Assembly: GCA_022772085.1 (NCBI GenBank)
Contig: JALFBN010000009.1
Location: forward strand, 86,428-150,427
Origin: Porphyromonas sp.
Lineage (GTDB): Bacteria > Bacteroidota > Bacteroidia > Bacteroidales > Porphyromonadaceae
Length of the DNA stretch: 64,000 nucleotides
Direction: 5' to 3'
This document shows positions 48,001 to 59,728 of this stretch, in pieces; position 1 is the first letter of the stretch, and every line of letters starts with the position of its first letter. Both the position numbers and the translations under genes were made by a program. Below the pieces are notes generated by a model. The model saw only the letters and a program-made list of their open reading frames with translations. It ran no database searches and was not told where the DNA came from.

Positions 48001-50122
48001 ATTACAATTCCGTTAAAGGTACAATTTGAAGAACTTGATGTTTAATACACGCCACGACCGTGTGTCATTTCAATTCTACTAAGGTACAATTTGGAGTGAT
48101 TCTGATGGCATGAATCAAGCACGTGCTGCAACTTTCAATTCCACTAAAGGTACAATTTGGAGGGACAACCCTTTTGCGAGTTTGTAACACTCGAGTACTT
48201 TCAATTCCACTAAAGGTACAATTTGGAGTTGTTCGCTTACAGCCTCTTATTGCTCCAGTTATGCACTTTCAATTCCACTAAAGGTACAATTTGGAGTCAA
48301 CTTCAAGAGTGCCTATATTGATATCATAATAGTCTTTCAATTCCACTAAAGGTACAATTTGGAGCCCGACGCCCTCGAGTCCGCGATATGGATGCTCAAC
48401 ACTTTCAATTCCACTAAAGGTACAATTTGGAGGCAATATTTTGCGGATCTGATGGGCAAATATTACCGCTTTCAATTCCACTAAAGGTACAATTTGGAGA
48501 CATCATACAAAGTAGGACAAACCAAAGGAGAATCCTTTCAATTCCACTAAAGGTACAATTTGGAGTCGAGATTGCAAGCATTCCTCGAATAATTTTTCGA
48601 CTTCTTTCAATTCCACTAAAGGTACAATTTGGAGGAAAGAAGCGCGTGAGATGTTTCGCAACCAGTATCTCACTTTCAATTCCACTAAAGGTACAATTTG
48701 GAGGGTTGTCTCCATTTCGTACTTAATCTGCTGAATGCGTTCTTTCAATTCCACTAAAGGTACAATTTGGAGTATAACATCCATACGCTGCGACATGAGT
48801 TCCATTTTCTTTCAATTCCACTAAAGGTACAATTTGGAGATATAAACTATGAGCCTACAGAATGATTAAAACTGTCTTTCAATTCCACTAAAGGTACAAT
48901 TTGGAGTTGTAAAATAAAAATGTCATGAATAAGATTGAAATACCAGCTTTCAATTCCACTAAAGGTACAATTTGGAGTCAAACACTGGAGGCACTAATAA
49001 TTACATATTGATAGGAACTTTCAATTCCACTAAAGGTACAATTTGGAGACATATTTCAAATTACGTTCTTGTTCGTACATCCAATCTTTCAATTCCACTA
49101 AAGGTACAATTTGGAGTATTTGTTCTGATTTTTCTTCTACTCTTAAACATCTTTCAATTCCACTAAAGGTACAATTTGGAGAAAAACAAACTTAGAACGA
49201 GGATAATCCGCAACATCCTTTCAATTCCACTAAAGGTACAATTTGGAGAATCCTATAATTATCAAAGATAATCCCGTTCCATGCTTTCAATTCCACTAAA
49301 GGTACAATTTGGAGCTAATACTCAGTATGGTTCTGAGGTTGGTCTTGACACTTTCAATTCCACTAAAGGTACAATTTGGAGTACTGATGCTGGTTCGTAT
49401 TATCTTGTTCATTTGTTCTTTCAATTCCACTAAAGGTACAATTTGGAGGCTGCAAACTTTGATGAATGGGAGCGCAACTCTGATCTTTCAATTCCACTAA
49501 AGGTACAATTTGGAGCAAACAAATGATGGGTAAGCACAAGTACAACTATCGTCTTTCAATTCCACTAAAGGTACAATTTGGAGAAGTGTGGGGCTTCAAG
49601 ATTCGGTTTGAGGAAGACACTTTCAATTCCACTAAAGGTACAATTTGGAGACAACAAGATGCTTCAATGGATAGGCACGCACCACGTCTTTCAATTCCAC
49701 TAAAGGTACAATTTGGAGTCCCCCTCGTATATCTCCTTGCCGTTCTTGTCTTTCCTTTCAATTCCACTAAAGGTACAATTTGGAGTTGTGATGTCTCGAC
49801 GGCTTGCGAAAATAGAACCCTCTTTCAATTCCACTAAAGGTACAATTTGGAGACACGAAGCCCGCAGCACCCTTGTTGTGCTCGAACCCCTTTCAATTCC
49901 ACTAAAGGTACAATTTGGAGCGTTCTTCATGATACAAATACACATACGCTTATATGTCTTTCAATTCCACTAAAGGTACAATTTGGAGTGGAATGATAGA
50001 CAAAGTCCTTGTCGAATATACGTGCTTTCAATTCCACTAAAGGTACAATTTGGAGTGCCAAAGAAACCTCTGAATCCGTCAAAGATGATAACTTTCAATT
50101 CCACTAAAGGTACAATTTGGAG
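48001..50122 (-). CRISPR. CRISPR array, 32 repeats and 31 spacers, transcribed leftward
   Basis: Thirty identical 31-nt repeats run from 48132 to 50122, preceded by two degenerate copies at 48001-48031 (five mismatches) and 48067-48096 (one base missing). Read on the minus strand, the repeat starts CTCCAAATTGTACC and ends GTGGAATTGAAAG. The ending gives the 8-nt ATTGAAAG 5' handle expected for Cas6-processed type I-B crRNAs. Period is 65-71 nt, so spacers are 34-40 nt, mostly 36-37; the two spacers between 48876 and 49018 are the longest. Degeneration at the left end, and the leader and cas2 at the right end, show that new spacers enter at the right and transcription runs leftward. All spacers look distinct by eye. 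Confidence 0.98.
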
Positions 50123-50488: not shown

Positions 50489-50752
50489 CTAGAGGAAATT
50501 ATCAATTACGGCTCTCTCTTTCCCTAGAATTTCTTTCTCCAACCATCGTTGCTGTCGGGAAGAAAAAATGATAATACTATCCTCTTTCCGATCCAAAATG
50601 TAGGATGCTTCAATCTTTAATTCTTTGAGTTTAACCTCGGTTATCTCTCCTTCAAACACGGAGTTCTGAATCCAGTTCAGGTATCTACGACAAAGCTTCA
50701 GCATCTTAGCCGTACGCTTTTCGCCAACATCATATACCAAGATAACGTACAT
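50489..50752 (-). CDS. cas2: CRISPR-associated endonuclease Cas2
   Basis: An 87-residue Cas2, structural partner of Cas1 in the integrase complex. It begins MYVILVYDVGEKR with the ferredoxin-like first strand and its conserved Asp, followed by RRYLNWIQNSVFEGEIT and SIIIFSS. The ATG at 50752 overlaps the cas1 stop (TGATG). In-frame TTG and GTG codons just upstream are less likely starts. It is the last gene of the cas operon and abuts the leader. Confidence 0.93.
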   Translation of the reverse strand: MYVILVYDVGEKRTAKMLKLCRRYLNWIQNSVFEGEITEVKLKELKIEASYILDRKEDSIIIFSSRQQRWLEKEILGKERAVIDNFL

Positions 50753-51768
50753 CACCAATACATTCTAAAAGGTTCATAGGGCTCCATTCCCAACAAATCT
50801 TTTGCCAACTTGTAGCATTCAAGACGAACGAGGTGCTTATAACTTACCGAACGCCCCAAGCGTCTATGCTTTATAGTTTCACTTAATCGCTCCTCAAACG
50901 CTTGTACAAATATCTTCTTTCCCGATGGATTAAGCACGCAACGATTCAATTTATTATCAAAATGTCGCTCCTGCAACATGCCTTTATTCAAGACTTTGAA
51001 GATGGTTCGGTCCACAAGAATAGGTTTGAAGATCTCCGAAATATCCAGACAGAGGGAATAACGCCTCTCGCCCGGAGTGTGCAGAAAGCTGATTGTAGGA
51101 TTCAATTGCGTCTGGTGTATCGCTTTGAGGCAAATAGTATAGCACATCATATTACCAAACGAGATCAGAGCGTTAACTTCATTTTTTGGCGGACGTTTGC
51201 TTCTTGCTCCCATCTCAAAATCGTTAATAATCAGATCGAATGCAGCATAATAGGCCTGCCTTATATTTCCCTCAATCCCCATCAGCTCTTCTATGCTTTG
51301 TGTAGCAGGGATATGAGATGCGTATCGATCCATTTGCTCCATCATCAAATGCAAATCCTTACCTCGGTTGTTATAATAACTGAGATTCTTCTGCATATTG
51401 AATGCGGCACCCTGAATAAACTTCTGAGCTAGCAGGAGGCGTCGGTCTATATTTTGGTACGCCTGTGCCTGTGCCAAGAGCATTTTCCCGGAGAGAAGGG
51501 ACTCCTTGGGCATAAATGATCCCGTATAATTTTCATAGTAATCAAAAAAATGAACGGCAATATCGCTCTTTCCTAGGAAATTAAATAGAGAACTATTGGC
51601 ACGCAAAGAACCAAAGACGTACATATCTTCGACTGTTTCTACCGGAATATAACGAGGGGTTCCAGAAGTTTCCGTACCATCAGTTTTCTCTTCTATCGGA
51701 AGAAAACAGAGAGAATTGTCCTTTCGTGACAATTCTCCCGGATTGAACAAATAAAAGCTCTTCTTCAT
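50752..51768 (-). CDS. cas1: CRISPR-associated integrase Cas1 (type I-B)
   Basis: A 338-residue metal-dependent integrase that inserts spacers at the leader-proximal repeat. The active-site residues are present: Glu166 (MGIEGNIRQ), His230 (SFLHTPGERR) and Asp242/Glu245 (LDISEIFKP). The N-terminal beta domain is complete (YLFNPGELSRKDNSLCFLP; FGSLRANSSLFNFLGKSDIAVHFFDYYENYTG). The C-terminus (LVRLECYKLAKDLLGMEPYEPFRMYW) is typical for I-B Cas1. Full length and apparently functional, in contrast to the broken csp1. A 166-nt gap separates it from cas4, the largest inside the cas operon. Confidence 0.96.
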   Translation of the reverse strand: MKKSFYLFNPGELSRKDNSLCFLPIEEKTDGTETSGTPRYIPVETVEDMYVFGSLRANSSLFNFLGKSDIAVHFFDYYENYTGSFMPKESLLSGKMLLAQAQAYQNIDRRLLLAQKFIQGAAFNMQKNLSYYNNRGKDLHLMMEQMDRYASHIPATQSIEELMGIEGNIRQAYYAAFDLIINDFEMGARSKRPPKNEVNALISFGNMMCYTICLKAIHQTQLNPTISFLHTPGERRYSLCLDISEIFKPILVDRTIFKVLNKGMLQERHFDNKLNRCVLNPSGKKIFVQAFEERLSETIKHRRLGRSVSYKHLVRLECYKLAKDLLGMEPYEPFRMYW

Positions 51769-51934: not shown

Positions 51935-52492
51935 CTAGGCCCGGATTTTTTTAGGACTTCCACCCAAAGAAGATTCATCCATCTTCACTTCCCCTCCGGA
52001 GAAGCAGAAATCGCAATAACTGCAAAGCCTACAGATCCGAGACTTTGTGCAAGGAGGACAATTCGGACTGCTCGTAATCTCCTCTATATCAATTGTTATA
52101 TTCCTTATATTTTCTCGATCGATATCTGTTAATAGAACCTCTTCTCGCTTCCTCAATTTGGGATATTCCAATATCCCCGTTGCCCCTAATACCCCATTTA
52201 ACTCTAGGACGTAAAGATAATAAAGGAGTTGGAGGCGATGGGCTGGAGCTATTTTGTCCGACTTCTTTATCTCATGTACAACTTTATTCCTCGCATCATA
52301 GAAATCTACTTTGATCCCATCAATTGCAAGTTCTTCGTAGCGCACCGGACGTTGTGGATAGGATTCTTCATGGATCAACTTGCCTTCATAAACCAAATCC
52401 GAAGTATGCTCCATGACAATGCCCGAGGAAAACAGCCACAACTTCCGATGGCAAACTTGATAGTAATTAAAATGGGTTCCTGTGATGATCAT
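51935..52492 (-). CDS. cas4: CRISPR-associated exonuclease Cas4
   Basis: A 185-residue Cas4 of the RecB nuclease family with an iron-sulfur cluster. It trims prespacers and selects their PAM-side end for Cas1-Cas2. The first cluster Cys is in NYYQVCHRKLWLF and the other three are in the C-terminal Cys-rich segment (CPPCTKSRICRLCSYCDFC). Nuclease residues are in IDGIKVDFYD and the E-x-K motif in VHEIKKSDK. The ATG at 52492 (MIITGTHFNYYQ) is the family-like start; the frame is open to 52516, which would place the start inside the hairpin at 52503-52541. Confidence 0.93.
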   Translation of the reverse strand: MIITGTHFNYYQVCHRKLWLFSSGIVMEHTSDLVYEGKLIHEESYPQRPVRYEELAIDGIKVDFYDARNKVVHEIKKSDKIAPAHRLQLLYYLYVLELNGVLGATGILEYPKLRKREEVLLTDIDRENIRNITIDIEEITSSPNCPPCTKSRICRLCSYCDFCFSGGEVKMDESSLGGSPKKIRA

Positions 52493-52502
52493 AGTACAAA
52501 AC

Positions 52503-52541
52503 AAGAAGAGATGCACTTAACTCAAGAATGCATCTCTTCTT
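52503..52541 (-). terminator. Perfect 13-bp hairpin between csp1 and cas4
   Basis: AAGAAGAGATGCA (52503-52515) and TGCATCTCTTCTT (52529-52541) form a perfect 13-bp inverted repeat with a 13-nt loop. On the minus strand the stem is followed by GTTTTG. It sits exactly between the effector genes and the adaptation genes and overlaps no coding sequence if cas4 starts at 52492. It may be a leaky terminator or an RNA-processing or stability element. Confidence 0.6.
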
Positions 52542-52556
52542 TTGAATCCATATTCG

Positions 52557-53680
52557 TTAGCACTGATTTTCGTAATCGAAGGACTGCATCAATTGGATAA
52601 GGCGCTGCTCTGCTGCTTCAAGGGCATCGGCGCGTTCATTTTCCACCACAATATAAGCTGCACAAGGTAGAGTAACAAACAATTCTGCTCCGGCGGTTTC
52701 GTCCACGATAGGCTTCGCTTTGAGCTTATCTACTCCCTCATCAATCAGTTTGGCACGAATCGCTCCTGCAAGCGCATTGGCATTATCGCAAACAGCAACT
52801 GCCAAGGTTTCCATAATACTGAATGTACGTGCCTGGTTTGATGTGATACGCCAATTGAGCAGAGCATGAGCCAAAGCGGGAATCACCTTTTCACGCTCTT
52901 CTTTGGGTAATACGAGACACTTTCCGAATATGTTTTCACTATCAACCCATCCCAGTGCTCTCAATTTCTCAATCGTCTCCAGATCTACTTCCGGATCATG
53001 TTGATTGAGAGAGACCGAAAACAGCGTGCGTAAATCCACAGCAATATCATATACAAACAATCCCGAAGTCCGTTTATTATCTGGGATCCAATGACGTCGT
53101 GCCAATGTTGTACCCGTATTGCGCAAAAAAGCTTCTATCTCTTCCTCTGATAAAAGTTCCTTTTTTCCAGCAATGCGTACATTCACCGGATGATTGTCCG
53201 GACGGTCACTACGGTCAAAAGTGATATTCTCCCTTTGAACACCCGCAAGCAACGGATGCAATGGACGCATCGCAGAGATAGATAGAGGACTACGACGTTT
53301 TTTGGTAATCCCATCACCTGCCCGCATCCAACCTCCAATAAGTTGATCAATGTGCTGAGGGTCACAAGGAGACCAAGGTTCCTTTTGAGCATATTTGTTC
53401 GTATTAGTACACCTCGCACTAGATAGTCACAAGGAGACCAAGGTTCCTTTTGAGCTAACTCCTTCTTTGCTGTAATTTCGTAGTTAAACGTCACCGGAGC
53501 CATTTGTACGCTCAGGTGATCTGTGAGAGCCTCCAGGATAGAACGCTTCACTTGCTGCCCACTGGAATAGGCTAAAAAGCGATTAAACTGAGGATCAAAA
53601 TAGGTCTTTTGACCATCTTCAACACAGAATACCGTATGTTCTGCCCGCTTAAGAGCTCGCAAATAGATGTATGGATTCAT
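52557..53680 (-). pseudogene. csp1: csp1/cas7 (Cascade backbone), broken by a 65-bp insertion
   Basis: The PGING-type Cas7 that polymerises along the crRNA in Cascade. The N-terminal part (from 53680) reads NPYIYLRALKRAEHTVFCVEDGQ, FLAYSSGQQVKRSILEAL and FNYEITAKKELAQKEPW. Then the frame is lost, and a second frame carries SPLSISAMRPLHPLLAG and the rest to 52557. The cause is visible: a 30-bp sequence is present twice (53361-53390 and 53426-53455) with 35 unrelated bp between. Removing 65 bp restores one frame of 352 codons, the expected Cas7 size. As it stands, the N-terminal product ends at 53183 after a nonsense tail. A reinitiated C-terminal piece could start at the ATG at 53327, but neither should build Cascade. 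Confidence 0.92.
53361..53455 (-). repeat. 30-bp direct repeats flanking a 35-bp insert inside csp1
   Basis: Copies at 53361-53390 and 53426-53455 are identical over exactly 30 bp; the bases just outside differ on both sides. The 35-bp middle (53391-53425) has no copy that I could find in the window. The unit of 65 bp equals the shortest repeat-spacer period in the array (65-71). Confidence 0.95.
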
Positions 53681-53683
53681 AAC

Positions 53684-55000
53684 TTATTCTTTGTTAGTAT
53701 TTTTATTTATTACTGCATAGCGAAAACGAATCAACGTTAGGAAATAGGGAACATTGTCCGAGGGCATTACATTGATGCTCGATACAATATTCTCAAAATC
53801 CTCAATGGCACTATCCGCTTCCTCCACGATATTCTTCATTTGGTCTATAAAACTCTTTTTGTTAGTGGATTCCAAAAGAGCTTTTACCATGTTACTTCTT
53901 CCTGTTCGTGCCATTTTACCCCCTAGGGAAAAGTCCTGTAAAGTCAAGGCAAATGCCTTGGCTCTGTCCCATAATTCTTCATTGTTCAGCATAGCTAATA
54001 ACCAAATTTGATATGTTTCGTATTGTATTTTTTGTTCCTCGTTATCGGATTTATAGGTTGGTATCTTACCACTCTTCATTAGAGAACTGAGTCCTTTCGG
54101 TTCTAAAGCTTTCAGTCCGATAACCCCTTCTTTACAGGCCATAGAAAAACCAAATGCAGTTCCAAATAGTTTCATAACCGGCTTTCTCTTTTCGGTTCCA
54201 AAGTAGCGGACATACAATTCACTAACCCTGCGAATAGAAGACAAAACGAAAGGAATAAAACCAATAGTCGTATTGGTTTGACCAATATTGTACACATACC
54301 CCATCATCCGTGGGTCTTTGAAATGACAACTCACGGCTGCAATCAACTCAACCCACGGCAAGGTTTGAATCTCCACGAGGTCATCCTTTGTTGAAAAAGC
54401 ATCACCAAAATCCAACAAACCGGAGCCATCATTAATATCGTATTTTCTCTTAAGCCATTGTCCATTCCATGTATTTATTTGATTTCCTCGCATCCTAGGT
54501 GTGGTATTTAGATAGCTACGATACACCTCCCACCCCTCTGCAATATCAAGTAAAATATCGGGATTATTAAAGAGAATCGTCAAACCTCCTTGTATTCCGA
54601 TACCCAAACCTGCACCAATCCATGATAAATAACATTCTGAAGGATCCACCTGTTCCAGGACAATAGAGACCTGCCCTGAAGTGGTAGAAAGTGTATCTAC
54701 GGATGGATACCCGATAGCAATACTTGCATCAGGAAGGCCCGTACCAATTTTCGCAAGAAACTTCTCCAAGCGTTCTTTCCTTCGATCTGCTGTCTCAAAG
54801 GGTTTCCTCCCCAAAATCATATCTTTCCAAGACAATTTGGGATTCTCAAAAGGAGAATTGCCCGCAGTCATCAGATACTTCTCATGACCAAAGAAGAGCG
54901 GATAGTACACCTCCAAGAAGAAACTCTTAGGCGTATATGCCTTGTTATGTTTTTCATTGTATGCTTGTAAGAATATCTTACCTATAACTGATGTTATCAT
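53684..55000 (-). CDS. csp2: Csp2, Cas8-like large Cascade subunit (PGING subtype)
   Basis: A 438-residue protein between cas3 and csp1, in the position of the Cas8 large subunit that recognises the PAM and recruits Cas3. The sequence (for example FFLEVYYPLFFGHEKYLMTAGNSPFENPKLSWKDM and ASIAIGYPSVDTLSTTSGQVSIVLEQ) agrees with the Csp2 family named for P. gingivalis. An alternating Gly-rich segment (GAGLGIGIQGGLTILFN) lies in the middle. Start is an ATG 12 nt after cas3 and the stop lies 3 nt before csp1, consistent with one operon. It appears intact. Confidence 0.85.
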   Translation of the reverse strand: MITSVIGKIFLQAYNEKHNKAYTPKSFFLEVYYPLFFGHEKYLMTAGNSPFENPKLSWKDMILGRKPFETADRRKERLEKFLAKIGTGLPDASIAIGYPSVDTLSTTSGQVSIVLEQVDPSECYLSWIGAGLGIGIQGGLTILFNNPDILLDIAEGWEVYRSYLNTTPRMRGNQINTWNGQWLKRKYDINDGSGLLDFGDAFSTKDDLVEIQTLPWVELIAAVSCHFKDPRMMGYVYNIGQTNTTIGFIPFVLSSIRRVSELYVRYFGTEKRKPVMKLFGTAFGFSMACKEGVIGLKALEPKGLSSLMKSGKIPTYKSDNEEQKIQYETYQIWLLAMLNNEELWDRAKAFALTLQDFSLGGKMARTGRSNMVKALLESTNKKSFIDQMKNIVEEADSAIEDFENIVSSINVMPSDNVPYFLTLIRFRYAVINKNTNKE

Positions 55001-55012
55001 CGCATATTTCGT

Positions 55013-57130
55013 TTATAGCATTTCAAAACTCTTGTATCTCTCTATGGTGGCAAATTCACCTAGGTAGCCCAACTCCTTATCATAAGCACTATCAGGAATA
55101 ACATAGGGGTAGGCCCCCTCCTCTACTTGTGTAAGCCCCTTGAATCGAATTGCTTTTGATATAGGAATCTCAAACTCGACTCGAGAAGAATAATCCCCCT
55201 GTATGTAACCCATTTGATCACTCTCCGTAATACAACAGGCCGAATCGATCTCCAACATCTCAAGAATAACCGATTTAGGTTTGTGTTTTAGCTCTTTAAG
55301 AGTCCATTGCCCTCCTCTAAAAATGGAATGTAACTCAATATCAATAAGTGAAATATCGGGATAGACAAAATCCAACAAATGCTGCACTTCCGTCTCGTGG
55401 AGGGGTGCTCCATCTTTCAAAGCATCGAAACTTCTTTGCAAAATCTCCTGTTTGTAAGGTTTGCACTCAGCCTCTTGGTCAGAAGGTGCAAGGATATATA
55501 TGGGTTTTAGTTGCCCAATGGTCTCGTGGGATCGTCGCCTATTGATGCGACCGAAACGCTGAATTAACGAATCTATCGGTGCGCATTCCGTTACCATAAC
55601 ATCGAAGCTAATATCCAAACTAACCTCCACAACTTGAGTAGATACCACGATACACGCATTTGTACTCTTGTCATATACCTCCTTCAATTCTCGTTCTAGG
55701 CGTGCTCGATCTCCTCGCCTAAATCGACTATGAATGAGCATGGATTGAACATCGGGATACCTCTCTCGCAACTCCACGTAGAGCTCTTGGGAACGCTTCA
55801 CTTGATTGCAAACAAAAAGAAGTTTGCGTTTGTTTTGTATAGCCTTCTCTACAATGGGGATCGTATCCTCTAGAAAATCTACTTTATGAATCATATGTCG
55901 GTCAAAGGTTGTCAGCTCTTCATCCGACAACTTTACTTCATAAACCTTTTCAGATCCTCCTAAAAGGTCTAGTAATTTATCATACAAAACACTCGGCATC
56001 GTAGCAGTCCCAATGTGTACACGACAGCCCAAAGCAATAAGGATCTCAACGATCTTTAAGACCATAGCTTGAGCAACAAAAGAGTAGGTGTGTATCTCAT
56101 CCAAAATAACATCGCACCCTTGTAAGTCCAAAGCCATTGCCTCGTAACCCTTTAGTCCAAAGGCAATTGCTCCCATCTGATGGGGAGTAAGGACTTTAAT
56201 GGAGGCTCCCATATGGTGCGATAGTACCCGCTCATACTCACCCTTCAGCTTCAGGATAGATGCCGCATGAAGCGGATAAATCTGAGCTTCTGAGTCTTTC
56301 AGATCCAATTTGATCCTATCATACATAGCATTGATCGATGCCTGAAAAGGCAATGTATAGAAGACACGTCCTCTGCATCGCCTTAATAGGAAATCGGTCT
56401 TGCCCGCTCCGGTCGGAGCTGTTACCAAAGTATGTGCCCGAGGATCATCTGTCGATATTTTTGACAAGGGGTAGAGTGAACTTTTTCTCGTGTTGTAATA
56501 GGATAGGTCAGGAGTAATAAATAGCTTCTGGAGTGCGGTATCTGTGTAATCTTCCAGAGCTGAAGCCAAATGGTCAGCAGCCATCAGCAATCCTTTCCAA
56601 CGAGAACATTTTGGAGTAAGTCCCCTACAATAATCTAAAGCCTCCTGATAATTCGCTCGAGCCTCCTCGATAGAAATAGGATGTACCTTCCAACCCAATG
56701 CGTTCAAAATGCCCAAAGCCTCCGAACTCCACTCCTCAAAACATTTACTATGATCGCTAAAACAATTGACTTCTAATTCGTCCAAATCAATAAATCCTCG
56801 ACCTCTAACATCTCCATAAATAGATTTATGATGAGCAATGATCATACGGATTACTGTTTGTCTCTTCTCCAAATCCTCAATCAAGGATAAGAAAAACAAA
56901 GAGGCTATTTCGTGGCGAAAGACGGAGTCCGAAGGGGAGAACTCTTTCTGTTTCAATCGCTCTTGAAAGATTGGACTTGCCTTACCTATATCGTGTAGAT
57001 GCGCTCCCATACGAGCGAGTTCGGGATCTAAACCTACATTCTGAGCAATACAAACAGCCACCCGAGCAACATCATCAAGATGTTGCCGGAGCGTAGTCCC
57101 ATTACTCTTAGCCAAAATATGATCAAACAT
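55013..57130 (-). CDS. cas3: CRISPR-associated nuclease-helicase Cas3
   Basis: A 705-residue fusion of HD nuclease and DExH helicase that degrades target DNA after Cascade binding. HD-domain metal ligands are visible at His17, His46-Asp47 (HLHDIGK) and His100-His101. The helicase has Walker A TAPTGAGKT (238-245), DEIH (344-347), the GTATMPS motif III (373-379), the VVSTQVVEVSLDISFD segment and motif VI QRFGRINRR (523-531). All motifs are intact, so the protein should be active if Cascade could form. It lies between cas5 (7-nt gap) and csp2. Confidence 0.97.
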   Translation of the reverse strand: MFDHILAKSNGTTLRQHLDDVARVAVCIAQNVGLDPELARMGAHLHDIGKASPIFQERLKQKEFSPSDSVFRHEIASLFFLSLIEDLEKRQTVIRMIIAHHKSIYGDVRGRGFIDLDELEVNCFSDHSKCFEEWSSEALGILNALGWKVHPISIEEARANYQEALDYCRGLTPKCSRWKGLLMAADHLASALEDYTDTALQKLFITPDLSYYNTRKSSLYPLSKISTDDPRAHTLVTAPTGAGKTDFLLRRCRGRVFYTLPFQASINAMYDRIKLDLKDSEAQIYPLHAASILKLKGEYERVLSHHMGASIKVLTPHQMGAIAFGLKGYEAMALDLQGCDVILDEIHTYSFVAQAMVLKIVEILIALGCRVHIGTATMPSVLYDKLLDLLGGSEKVYEVKLSDEELTTFDRHMIHKVDFLEDTIPIVEKAIQNKRKLLFVCNQVKRSQELYVELRERYPDVQSMLIHSRFRRGDRARLERELKEVYDKSTNACIVVSTQVVEVSLDISFDVMVTECAPIDSLIQRFGRINRRRSHETIGQLKPIYILAPSDQEAECKPYKQEILQRSFDALKDGAPLHETEVQHLLDFVYPDISLIDIELHSIFRGGQWTLKELKHKPKSVILEMLEIDSACCITESDQMGYIQGDYSSRVEFEIPISKAIRFKGLTQVEEGAYPYVIPDSAYDKELGYLGEFATIERYKSFEML

Positions 57131-57137
57131 TTCTCGT

Positions 57138-57722
57138 CTATGATAATACGGCTTCTCCCCCTATTTCTATGCGTCCATACATAGGAGCATTTTCATCAAA
57201 GCGATTAAATCCAACCATAAAAGAGTCCGAATATGAAGGGTCAAATCGTAGCTCAAAGCCGGGTAAAGCAGAGAATTGAGATTCATCCATGGCTATAATA
57301 TCAGCATCAGGAAGCACAATGTCTTCGTTACGACACAAACACAAATGTTGTTTCGATGCCACAACGGCATCCTCTTCTGTCATAAAAGCAAGGTAAAGCG
57401 AGGGAGAAAGCATTATGCCTCGCCTAAGAATCGACTGATTCCTTACATAATAACGATTTTTCGCACTCCCTTTGGCTTCCCATGCCTGCGTCTGTGTTTT
57501 CTCTTGCTGCAGATCTATACCTTTGTAATGGAGCTTATGGCGAACAATTTTCTGTATCCCTTTTTCTGACAACGTTTCGGGAAATAACTTCTTTTCCATC
57601 CCCTCCACTATCGAAGGGGTTAGGAATTGCTGACTATAAGTCTCTCCATCCCGCACTGCAGTCCAAGGCTTGATATAGCCAAATGGACCTTGATAGTGAA
57701 CAACAAATAGCTTTTTATCCAT
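57138..57722 (-). CDS. cas5: Cas5 (PGING subtype, Cas5p)
   Basis: A 194-residue Cascade subunit that binds the crRNA 5' handle and caps the Cas7 filament. It begins MDKKLFVVHYQGPFGYIKPWTAVRD, a Cas5-type first strand with the P-F-G-(F/Y)-I-K-P-W-T element, and continues with the TFLTPSIVEGMEK-like region (QQFLTPSIVEGMEKKLFP). This matches the Cas5p branch of P. gingivalis-type systems rather than classic I-B Cas5h. It lies 7 nt downstream of cas6 and 7 nt upstream of cas3. Confidence 0.85.
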   Translation of the reverse strand: MDKKLFVVHYQGPFGYIKPWTAVRDGETYSQQFLTPSIVEGMEKKLFPETLSEKGIQKIVRHKLHYKGIDLQQEKTQTQAWEAKGSAKNRYYVRNQSILRRGIMLSPSLYLAFMTEEDAVVASKQHLCLCRNEDIVLPDADIIAMDESQFSALPGFELRFDPSYSDSFMVGFNRFDENAPMYGRIEIGGEAVLS

Positions 57723-57729
57723 AACCTCT

Positions 57730-58395
57730 CTACCTTATAGCTCCGAATCCAATCCCCGTAGAATTGCCCAGCCCTGCGTTCCAAATCAAAAGTTTTGTCT
57801 CAGGTTTTGCCACAATTCGTATGGGACACCAACTAACTTTATTTTTGATGCCTTTATAATCAATAAGCATTTCCTTAGAAATACCCTCGTAGGGGACAAA
57901 CTGAGCCATCGCATCTGCATCATCAATCCCTGCTGCAAGGAGTTTTTTCCGTAGGTTTAGCATCAAAATCTCATTTGCTTCGGGGTCTTGATACAATAGA
58001 TGCTTGTAGCGATGTTCTTCTTGCTTTACTTTAAGAAGAATAGGACTCGCCGGGTAAAACAAATCCCTACCACTCAAGTCCGGATCCTCTTCGATAACAA
58101 CCTCTCGAACAATCAATCCATCGAACATTTCGGGATCACGTTGAATTCCCCGTAGGATCTGTCTTAGGAAATCAGAGTTATGAGCCCCTACAAAGAAAGT
58201 TGCTCGATGATCAAAAAGGATACCCTTCAGATCTTTTACTGCCTTTCCTCCAGATAAACGAGAGAATGAAAAAAGGGAAGATTGCCCATGCCAATCATTG
58301 GGTCCTAACCACTTATGGATGCAACCCACCACTTTATGTTGGTGTACAAAGGGCACAATTGTCCTGTTTGCCTGTATGTCTAATAATAATCTCAT
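57730..58395 (-). CDS. cas6: CRISPR RNA endonuclease Cas6
   Basis: A 221-residue pre-crRNA processing enzyme, first gene of the cas operon. It begins MRLLLDIQANRTIVPFVHQHKVVGCIHKWLG, with the Cas6 first strand and a His (HKWLG) in the expected catalytic region. It ends with the family's Gly-rich loop, GLGNSTGIGFGAIR. The ATG at 58395 was chosen; the frame continues to 58770 but only as an out-of-frame reading of the ygcG 3' end. The ygcG stop is just 19 nt upstream, which leaves no room for a separate cas promoter. Confidence 0.92.
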   Translation of the reverse strand: MRLLLDIQANRTIVPFVHQHKVVGCIHKWLGPNDWHGQSSLFSFSRLSGGKAVKDLKGILFDHRATFFVGAHNSDFLRQILRGIQRDPEMFDGLIVREVVIEEDPDLSGRDLFYPASPILLKVKQEEHRYKHLLYQDPEANEILMLNLRKKLLAAGIDDADAMAQFVPYEGISKEMLIDYKGIKNKVSWCPIRIVAKPETKLLIWNAGLGNSTGIGFGAIR

Positions 58396-58414
58396 AGGCT
58401 TTCTAATAAACTGA

Positions 58415-59728
58415 TTACCAAGATCCTCCGGCTCCACCACCACCGGTGGAACCGCCTCCCCAGCCTCCGCCGGAACTTCCTCTAGAGCTACCAAAACCAC
58501 CACTTGACCAACCGCCAAAAACACTGCCTGCGGCAGCTGCCACAGCAGCGGTACTCGCCGAACTCGATTTATATCTCTTTCTGCGATCCTGATGCTTACA
58601 ATATTCACATTTGTAGTAGACCATATCATAGTCCGAATCCCCTTTCTTAATCCAAGAGTGATAGGCATACGTACCACAATTTGGACAACGAGAATAACGT
58701 GAATAGAGCTCTCTAATAGGATAAACTTGCTGATACCCACACAGACTACACTCCTGCGCCCCATATTCACGTGACTTCAAAACCGTCTCTAGATGTTGAC
58801 GATCATCAAGTAATGCATAGAGTTTGTTCGTATCCGTAATTGGTTGTAAGGTATCTTTTTGGCAACGAGGACAACGCTTGCTCTCTTTCGTAAGTTTGCC
58901 AATATGGTATTTACCGAAACTATAAAGAAGTATCCCTATCGGTAGACAAGCAATACCAAATATCAAGCCATATGTCCTATTCTTTGATTTAAGACGTGCC
59001 AACCGTTCGAAAGGAGTTTGATGGGCATATTTCCCCTTTTTCTCCACAATCTTATTCAGTTGCTTATATGACTTAACGGAAGTGTAGAGGATAATTAATA
59101 CATAGAAAAACCAAAATGTATAGAGCCCGTCAGTATCTTCATTCTCTCCTTGGTAACCTGATGCCGGATCCGTGCGCTCAGCTCCCTCAAATTTTCCTGT
59201 TTCTAAGACCTGATTAACGGCAGCAATACCGCTCAAGAGACCTTCTTGGTACTGATCTTCTTTGAAGAAAGGGATCATCCTATTACGTATAATGCTGGAG
59301 CAAGTAGCATCAGGTAAATTTCCCTCCAAGCCATAGCCCGTATTGATGAATATCTTATGTGAATCCATCACGAGCAGGATAAGTAAACCGCTATTGGTCT
59401 TTTTCGATCCCAATCCCCACGTGCGGAAGAGATCGACTGCGAACTCTTCAATAGCCTGATCTCCAATGGAAGGCAATACCACTAAGGCAGCATCGACCCC
59501 CCACCTTAGGCGCAGGTTATGCAACGCTTCGTCTAAAGAAGCAACCGCACTCTCATTAAAAAAATGAGCAGGATCCGACGTAAACCGAAGACTATCGCCT
59601 ACCTGTACATTGGGTACATCTTCGACCTTAAAAACGGGCTGACCCCCTTGTGAAAACCCTTCAGTCACACTAAAGAGAGTCAGCATCAGGCCCAAAAGGA
59701 TCGAAGCTGTGTATTTGTAAAAATTCAT
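58415..59728 (-). CDS. TPM-domain (YgcG-type) membrane protein
   Basis: A 437-residue envelope protein with signal peptide, then a TPM domain (residues about 35-190: VEDVPNVQVGDSLRFTSDPAHFFNESAVASLDEAL; WGVDAALVVLPSIGDQAIEEFAVDLFRTWGLGSKKTNSGLLILLVMD; IFINTGYGLEGNLPDATCSSIIRN). A transmembrane part follows, two zinc-ribbon-like Cys clusters (CPRCQKDT, CSLCGYQ, CPNCGTYA, CEYCKHQ) and a Gly/Ser-rich tail. TPM proteins of the YgcG group accompany LemA, as here (28-nt gap). The tandem zinc ribbons are unusual additions. The stop lies 19 nt before cas6. Confidence 0.88.
   Translation of the reverse strand: MNFYKYTASILLGLMLTLFSVTEGFSQGGQPVFKVEDVPNVQVGDSLRFTSDPAHFFNESAVASLDEALHNLRLRWGVDAALVVLPSIGDQAIEEFAVDLFRTWGLGSKKTNSGLLILLVMDSHKIFINTGYGLEGNLPDATCSSIIRNRMIPFFKEDQYQEGLLSGIAAVNQVLETGKFEGAERTDPASGYQGENEDTDGLYTFWFFYVLIILYTSVKSYKQLNKIVEKKGKYAHQTPFERLARLKSKNRTYGLIFGIACLPIGILLYSFGKYHIGKLTKESKRCPRCQKDTLQPITDTNKLYALLDDRQHLETVLKSREYGAQECSLCGYQQVYPIRELYSRYSRCPNCGTYAYHSWIKKGDSDYDMVYYKCEYCKHQDRRKRYKSSSASTAAVAAAAGSVFGGWSSGGFGSSRGSSGGGWGGGSTGGGGAGGSW

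Follow-up and report, generated by a model that had tools for sequence, protein, structure and literature searches.

A type I-B cas7 gene of Porphyromonas interrupted by an insertion with repeat-spacer architecture, consistent with off-target spacer integration

The cas7 gene of a type I-B CRISPR-Cas operon in a Porphyromonas sp. genome was found to be interrupted by 65 bp with the dimensions of a CRISPR repeat-spacer unit, which we attribute, with a probability of roughly 0.88, to off-target spacer integration by the type I-B Cas1-Cas2 using a mobile element as the donor. A sequence-only reading of the window (the whole 64,000-nucleotide stretch of DNA that was analysed) had proposed that the insertion has the architecture of such a unit. 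This proposal was supported by the identification of a donor, the CC and GG edges of the donor fragment, open cas1, cas2 and cas4 genes, relatives with an empty site, two further instances of the same 30/35/30 structure, and the match of the newest spacer in the array to a resident prophage.

Two copies of a 30-bp cas7 stretch, located at positions 53361..53390 and 53426..53455 of the window (plus strand), were revealed by repeat comparison to be 100% identical at a start-to-start distance of 65 bp, and to enclose a 35-bp filler (53391..53425, plus strand). The perfect duplication around 35 bp described from the letters was thereby borne out, and the structure is confirmed as a real feature of the sequence as assembled. 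Each border of the insert is uncertain to within one base, since the donor also has C and G at these positions, hence parses of 30+35, 29+36 and 28+37 are possible. The duplication is accordingly at most 30 bp and the insert 35 to 37 bp depending on the parse, with a total that is always 65 bp.

The affected gene (type I-B Cas7b; 52557..53680, minus strand) is frame-shifted by the 65-bp gain and is read as two pieces. Its 5' part enters the wrong frame past the insert (ORF 53183-53680, 165 aa), and its 3' part forms an open frame that begins at an internal start (ORF 52557-53327, 256 aa), these two ORFs in different frames agreeing with the frameshift that had been read from the sequence. Both pieces matched the PADLOC Cas7b model PDLC01493 (347 positions), at profile positions 1-85 and 96-347, such that normal Cas7 sequence does lie on either side of the insert, as previously claimed. 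A search of the host genome with the intact Cas7 of Porphyromonas endodontalis (352 aa) retrieved this locus as the sole match (residues 1-86 and 70-352), and no second cas7 copy was found elsewhere in the genome with this query. Alignment with the genes of P. endodontalis, a Porphyromonas MAG and Porphyromonas genome G006 demonstrated that the 30-bp stretch is single in all three, and that the extra 65 bp are present in the window only; the uninterrupted gene of related strains thus lacks the insertion in three of three cases, as the sequence-only reading had anticipated. The nearest named relative found was P. endodontalis ATCC 35406, whose Cas8 is 84% identical. As the gain shifts the frame of cas7, a full Cas7 backbone, and with it an interference complex, would not be expected, and interference has probably been lost in this cell through the break in cas7.

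The operon is encoded on the minus strand in the order cas6b, cas5b, cas3, cas8b, cas7b, cas4, cas1 and cas2, followed by the array. PADLOC placed cas6b in the C-terminal part (residues 126-345) of an ORF at 57730..58770, the true start of which is probably internal, and also identified cas5b (57138..57722) and cas8b (53684..55000; PDLC01511, 580 bits), between which lies cas3, with HD and helicase domains (55013..57130; family match). The cas7, cas8 and cas5 genes had no match in NCBIfam or Pfam profiles, and all three were identified by the PADLOC models. Beyond cas7, the cas4 (51935..52516) and cas2 (50489..50758) genes were each recognized as an open ORF with a family match, and the type I-B cas1 (50752..51768), which encodes the probable integrase, is likewise open and matched TIGR03641 with 454.8 bits (cut-off 304.1). 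Intact cas1 and cas2 genes, both open with family matches, were therefore observed in the same genome as the insert. In the CRISPR array (48132..50122, minus strand), 30 identical repeats of 31 bp alternate with 29 spacers measuring 34-40 bp, and degenerate units run on to about 47990; the leader is assumed to be on the cas2 side because these degenerate units sit at the opposite end. The array period of 65-71 bp given in the earlier reading was correct, although the repeat is 31 bp and not 30 bp.

The filler, described in that reading as unrelated DNA, proved to be an exact copy of another site in the same genome. Together with one flanking base on each side it is identical at 37 of 37 positions to contig C17, 9844-9880, which is its only other occurrence in the host genome. 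This site lies in an open gene for a 489-aa DNA adenine methyltransferase (N6_Mtase and Eco57I domains). Contig C17 resembles an integrated mobilizable element because it also encodes a tyrosine integrase, a Mob_Pre relaxase and a Toprim/zinc-ribbon primase, and the donor of the filler thus looks like a mobilizable element integrated in the same genome. The donor region had no match in the phage collection, no relative of the donor methyltransferase was retrieved in the viral search, and nothing was detected in Rfam and tRNA scans of 20 kb of the donor contig. A contig of the viral collection (L270, 3017-4357) encodes an integrase sharing 97% identity with the integrase of the donor element, suggesting that this element or its close kin circulates.

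The donor fragment has CC immediately to its left and GG immediately to its right, an arrangement in which only 0.13-0.32% of positions in six host-genome stretches would place a 35-mer (CC and GG directly outside). Although a flanking direct repeat is the signature of target duplication, a small transposable element generating a 30-bp duplication is an exceedingly improbable source of this structure, considering that the 35 bp were found once elsewhere in the genome, inside coding sequence, and that no inverted repeat pair is present at the ends of the insert.

The recurrence of these dimensions was investigated by scanning 131 loci (2,387,458 bases, mostly Bacteroidota) for isolated pairs of perfect direct repeats (22 bp or longer, periods of 25-219 bp); the loci partly overlap, with 2.30 million unique 40-mer starts in the 2.39 Mb. 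A total of 23 isolated repeat pairs were found, 19 of which were set aside. Eleven of these were array-derived (L074, L127, L078, L064, L061, L050, L091, L112, L120, L037 and L122, with L050 assigned by resemblance only), three were scaffold gaps of N (L144, L163 and L031 at 20442), one was palindromic (L030, 27/53), one was of low complexity (L131), and three had other dimensions (L031, 31/101; L049, 31/125 and 104/28). The remaining four comprised three 30/35 structures, including that of the window, and one 32/34 structure. In Alkalitalea saponilacus, a DUF6155 gene located between cas7 and cas4 is split at its 3' end by an isolated 30/35/30 structure (L080, 9510-9604). Homologues of this gene are unbroken, and the second copy continues into the homologue-like ending (GWGFHD...YY) whilst the first does not (7 of 12 homologous loci compared). 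The third 30/35/30 structure is located between genes in Porphyromonas genome G006 (L148, 1615-1709; C1:901614-901708), where the relative G008 is about 65 bp shorter; its neighbours are a 236-aa gene and what we take to be a leucyl-tRNA-synthetase-like gene. Both of these genomes carry type I-B cas genes. The I-B repeat was found 119 times in genome G006, which consists of one contig of 2,354,886 bases; array 30.1 of Porphyromonas gingivalis ATCC 33277 is listed with 119 spacers in PMC13055991.

The fillers of the Alkalitalea, G006 and 32/34 structures were not found elsewhere in their own genomes (at E <= 0.001 for that of G006) or in the other DNA collected. The 87 loci near cas genes (1.52 Mb) held the window, the Alkalitalea case and the 32/34 case, and the 44 other loci (0.87 Mb) held one 30/35 case, hence no enrichment of such structures near cas genes was seen in this comparison. 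No case of this size was detected in 20 loci (326,500 bases) of the control genome G019, which has no Cas1 match and is 85% complete, or in 74 loci of viral contigs (981,757 bases), which yielded two and eight isolated pairs of other sizes, respectively. At the observed rate, this Cas1-negative and viral DNA (1.31 Mb) would be expected to hold one or two cases, and the result is therefore consistent with, rather than proof of, specificity. Further sampling returned no isolated pair in 20 additional loci of the host genome (367,870 bases), and none of this size in genomes G001 and G017, each with one Cas1 (5 loci and 100,000 bases each; three and one pairs of other sizes, respectively). Ten loci of G006 (200,000 bases) contained one tRNA-like pair and an isolated 33/34/33 structure (L231, 10922-11021) between genes beside a transposase-like gene, which is ambiguous.

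Several related arrangements were observed in the course of this survey. The 32/34/32 structure lies in a Tannerella MAG (L048, 6427-6524) just upstream of a cas6-like gene, and could either be a mini-array of two repeats or have been left by off-target integration in a system whose repeats measure 32 bp. In L078 (12441-12532), two repeat copies that enclose 40 bp directly follow cas7 within a cas operon and are separate from the main array, and six isolated duplications measuring 23-47 bp were observed within 14.6 kb of viral contig L269.

These comparisons bear on two other origins of the cas7 structure. The host assembly is a draft in 17 contigs, such that an artefact might be suspected, yet a chimaera would not be expected to generate a perfect repeat-length duplication around a spacer-length fragment, and the same dimensions were observed in two other genomes, one of which is a single contig; we regard an artefact as very unlikely. 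Alternatively, a staggered break in cas7 may have been filled in by break repair or template switching without Cas1, a 35-bp patch being copied from the other locus. This would agree with a filler copied from within the genome and with the single base that filler and cas7 have in common at either junction; against it stand the CC and GG edges of the source, the correspondence of both lengths to repeat and spacer, and the same pair of lengths in two other genomes. Furthermore, none of the three genomes in which a 30/35 case occurs yielded a Ku homologue (Ku of Bacillus subtilis was detected as a control), which speaks against end-joining, and we consider this route to be quite unlikely.

Off-target integration would account for both lengths. 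The 30-bp duplication is of repeat length when compared with the type I-B repeats of 29-31 bp in every array compared, and the 35-bp insert is of spacer length, falling within the range of the host array and of other type I-B arrays (mostly 33-40 bp). The host genome has three Cas1 genes, and the two outside the type I-B operon lie by further arrays, that on contig C3 with 32-bp repeats and 35-bp spacers (L191, from 3621) and that on contig C14 by one whose repeats are 36 bp and whose spacers are roughly 26 bp long (L192, from 11675). Judged by their repeats, the C3 array is probably of type I-C and the C14 array of type V-A (Cas12a). Integration by one of these systems rather than by type I-B is unlikely: the additional Cas1 genes and the 35-bp spacers of the C3 array would be in keeping with it, but the duplication cannot exceed 30 bp, against repeats of 32 bp (C3) and of 36 bp with spacers of about 26 bp (C14). 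Amongst the three Cas1 enzymes, the type I-B enzyme fits best to the sizes of duplication and insert.

We infer Cas1-Cas2 to be the agent, with events in the following order. The type I-B Cas1-Cas2, with Cas4, would load a fragment of about 35 bp from the resident mobilizable element, the two ends of which would be transferred, in the enzyme's usual pair of staggered strand transfers, to opposite strands of cas7 at points some 30 bp from each other, and not to the first repeat of the array. Gap filling of the two single-stranded halves would then double these 30 or so base pairs, a repeat length, and the resulting gain of 65 bp would break cas7, with cas1, cas2 and cas4 remaining open.

The target site resembles the repeat only modestly, and this resemblance is no more than suggestive. 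The duplicated cas7 stretch matched the array repeat at 14 of 30 positions (P = 0.042, relative to all 30-mers of a host-genome sample in both orientations). For the full-length repeat, the corresponding values were 0.097 for the G006 case and 0.053 for the Alkalitalea case, for which the background 30-mers were taken partly from other genomes (L083 and L077), and 0.010 for the three cases combined; for the ends alone they were 0.063 (window), 0.136 (G006) and 0.393 (Alkalitalea), or 0.077 combined. The leader end showed 6 of 8 matches (P = 0.006) in one of the four parses tested, namely the 29-bp parse. Under the 30-bp parse, G occupies both strand-transfer positions in the window, which holds for neither the G006 nor the Alkalitalea case. 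For a different Cas1-Cas2, Kim 2019 (PMC6895254) reports off-target sites that resemble the leader-repeat junction, with a preference for G. A canonical unit of the CRISPR array was also considered for the cas7 structure and rejected, the flanking 30-mer being cas7 sequence with so few matches to the repeat.

Perfect protospacers were found in the DNA examined for 2 of the 29 array spacers. The leader-side spacer (50056..50091, minus strand), the newest by position, matched a resident prophage on contig C14 (303967-304002) with CCA upstream, the target being a gene at 7703-8032 of L095 in a prophage that carries capsid, portal and terminase genes. The spacer at 48365-48401 matched contig C14 of P. 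endodontalis genome G005, with CCT upstream. The oldest, degenerate array unit resembled a conserved gene at seven places in six genomes (80-88% identity), with CC at the same position in all seven if the spacer is taken to start at the following G. Given CC at both perfect protospacers and at all seven of these places, the protospacer motif of this type I-B system is probably CCN, which is listed for type I-B of Clostridium and type I-C of Porphyromonas in Vink 2021 (PMC8482600). Comparison of the array with the phage collection gave one weak match only (87.8%, a Staphylococcus phage), which was not used, and a comparison of 3,425 spacers with the DNA collected returned the two known protospacers, with all other matches inside arrays or repeat regions. 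The terminase large subunit of the prophage (L095, 16697-19144) contains an inserted homing-endonuclease/LAGLIDADG domain, probably an intein.

The donor fragment has CC and GG at its edges, but the cut is one base off the canonical position, in that array spacers start after CCN whereas the cas7 insert starts after CC and keeps one motif base. This offset, the 31-bp array repeat against a duplication of at most 30 bp, and the weak likeness of the target were all counted against off-target integration, as were the absence of a further case of this size from 367,870 other bases of the host genome, the other structures' fillers for which no donor was found, and the small size (1.31 Mb) of the controls lacking Cas1; the overall reading was retained at the probability given above. 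The perfect match of the newest spacer to a resident prophage with CCA fits an interference machinery that is dead, without being proof of it. Type I-B spacers perfectly matching the strains' own prophage are likewise described for P. gingivalis in PMC10367356, where anti-CRISPR genes were considered, whereas here the broken cas7 would be a direct reason.

Off-target spacer integration is itself known. Nivala, Shipman and Church reportedly demonstrated it in vivo in 2018 (Nat Microbiol 3:310), giving rise to neo-CRISPR loci, and are said to have proposed natural cases in Yersinia pestis and Sulfolobus islandicus. Those loci reportedly share with the cas7 structure a spacer-length insert between repeat-length copies of the target outside an array; the present case differs in that an interference gene of the host itself was hit, the donor was traced to a mobile element within that host's genome, a type I-B system of the Bacteroidota is involved and the dimensions recur in other genomes. 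The 2018 study is cited in PMC11788318, PMC9456107 and PMC11687729. The Cas1-Cas2 of Streptococcus thermophilus (type II-A) integrates in vitro outside the array at sites that resemble the leader-repeat junction, with G preferred, although the products were probably half-site products on plasmids (PMC6895254), in contrast to the completed chromosomal insertion and modest site likeness described here. Ectopic acquisition inside arrays similarly places a spacer wrongly, yet still at a true array repeat (PMC7999890, PMC8047081), and not in a protein-coding gene. Off-target activity is also mentioned for a minimal type V-C Cas1 in PMC13034035. In the literature searched, with most subscription papers outside coverage, insertions of this kind were reported neither for a cas gene of the host itself nor for the Bacteroidota, and the apparent novelty is that the host lost an effector gene of its own to an insert of traceable origin.

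Little is known of how frequently CRISPR adaptation mutates its host in nature. This frequency becomes measurable with a scar whose donor and target are both known and which clearly breaks a gene: occurrences of the 30/35/30 signature can be tallied in any genome. Such an insertion would also provide a direct route to the loss of interference, after which spacers matching the cell's own genome become tolerable. More tentatively, and at somewhat less than even odds, the type I-B Cas1-Cas2 of the Bacteroidota may scar host chromosomes (three 30/35 structures in about 2.4 Mb), one such scar having disabled interference and let the prophage and donor element stay. Adaptation would then act as a mutator of its own immunity, perhaps reversibly, because the 30-bp direct repeats in cas7 could recombine.
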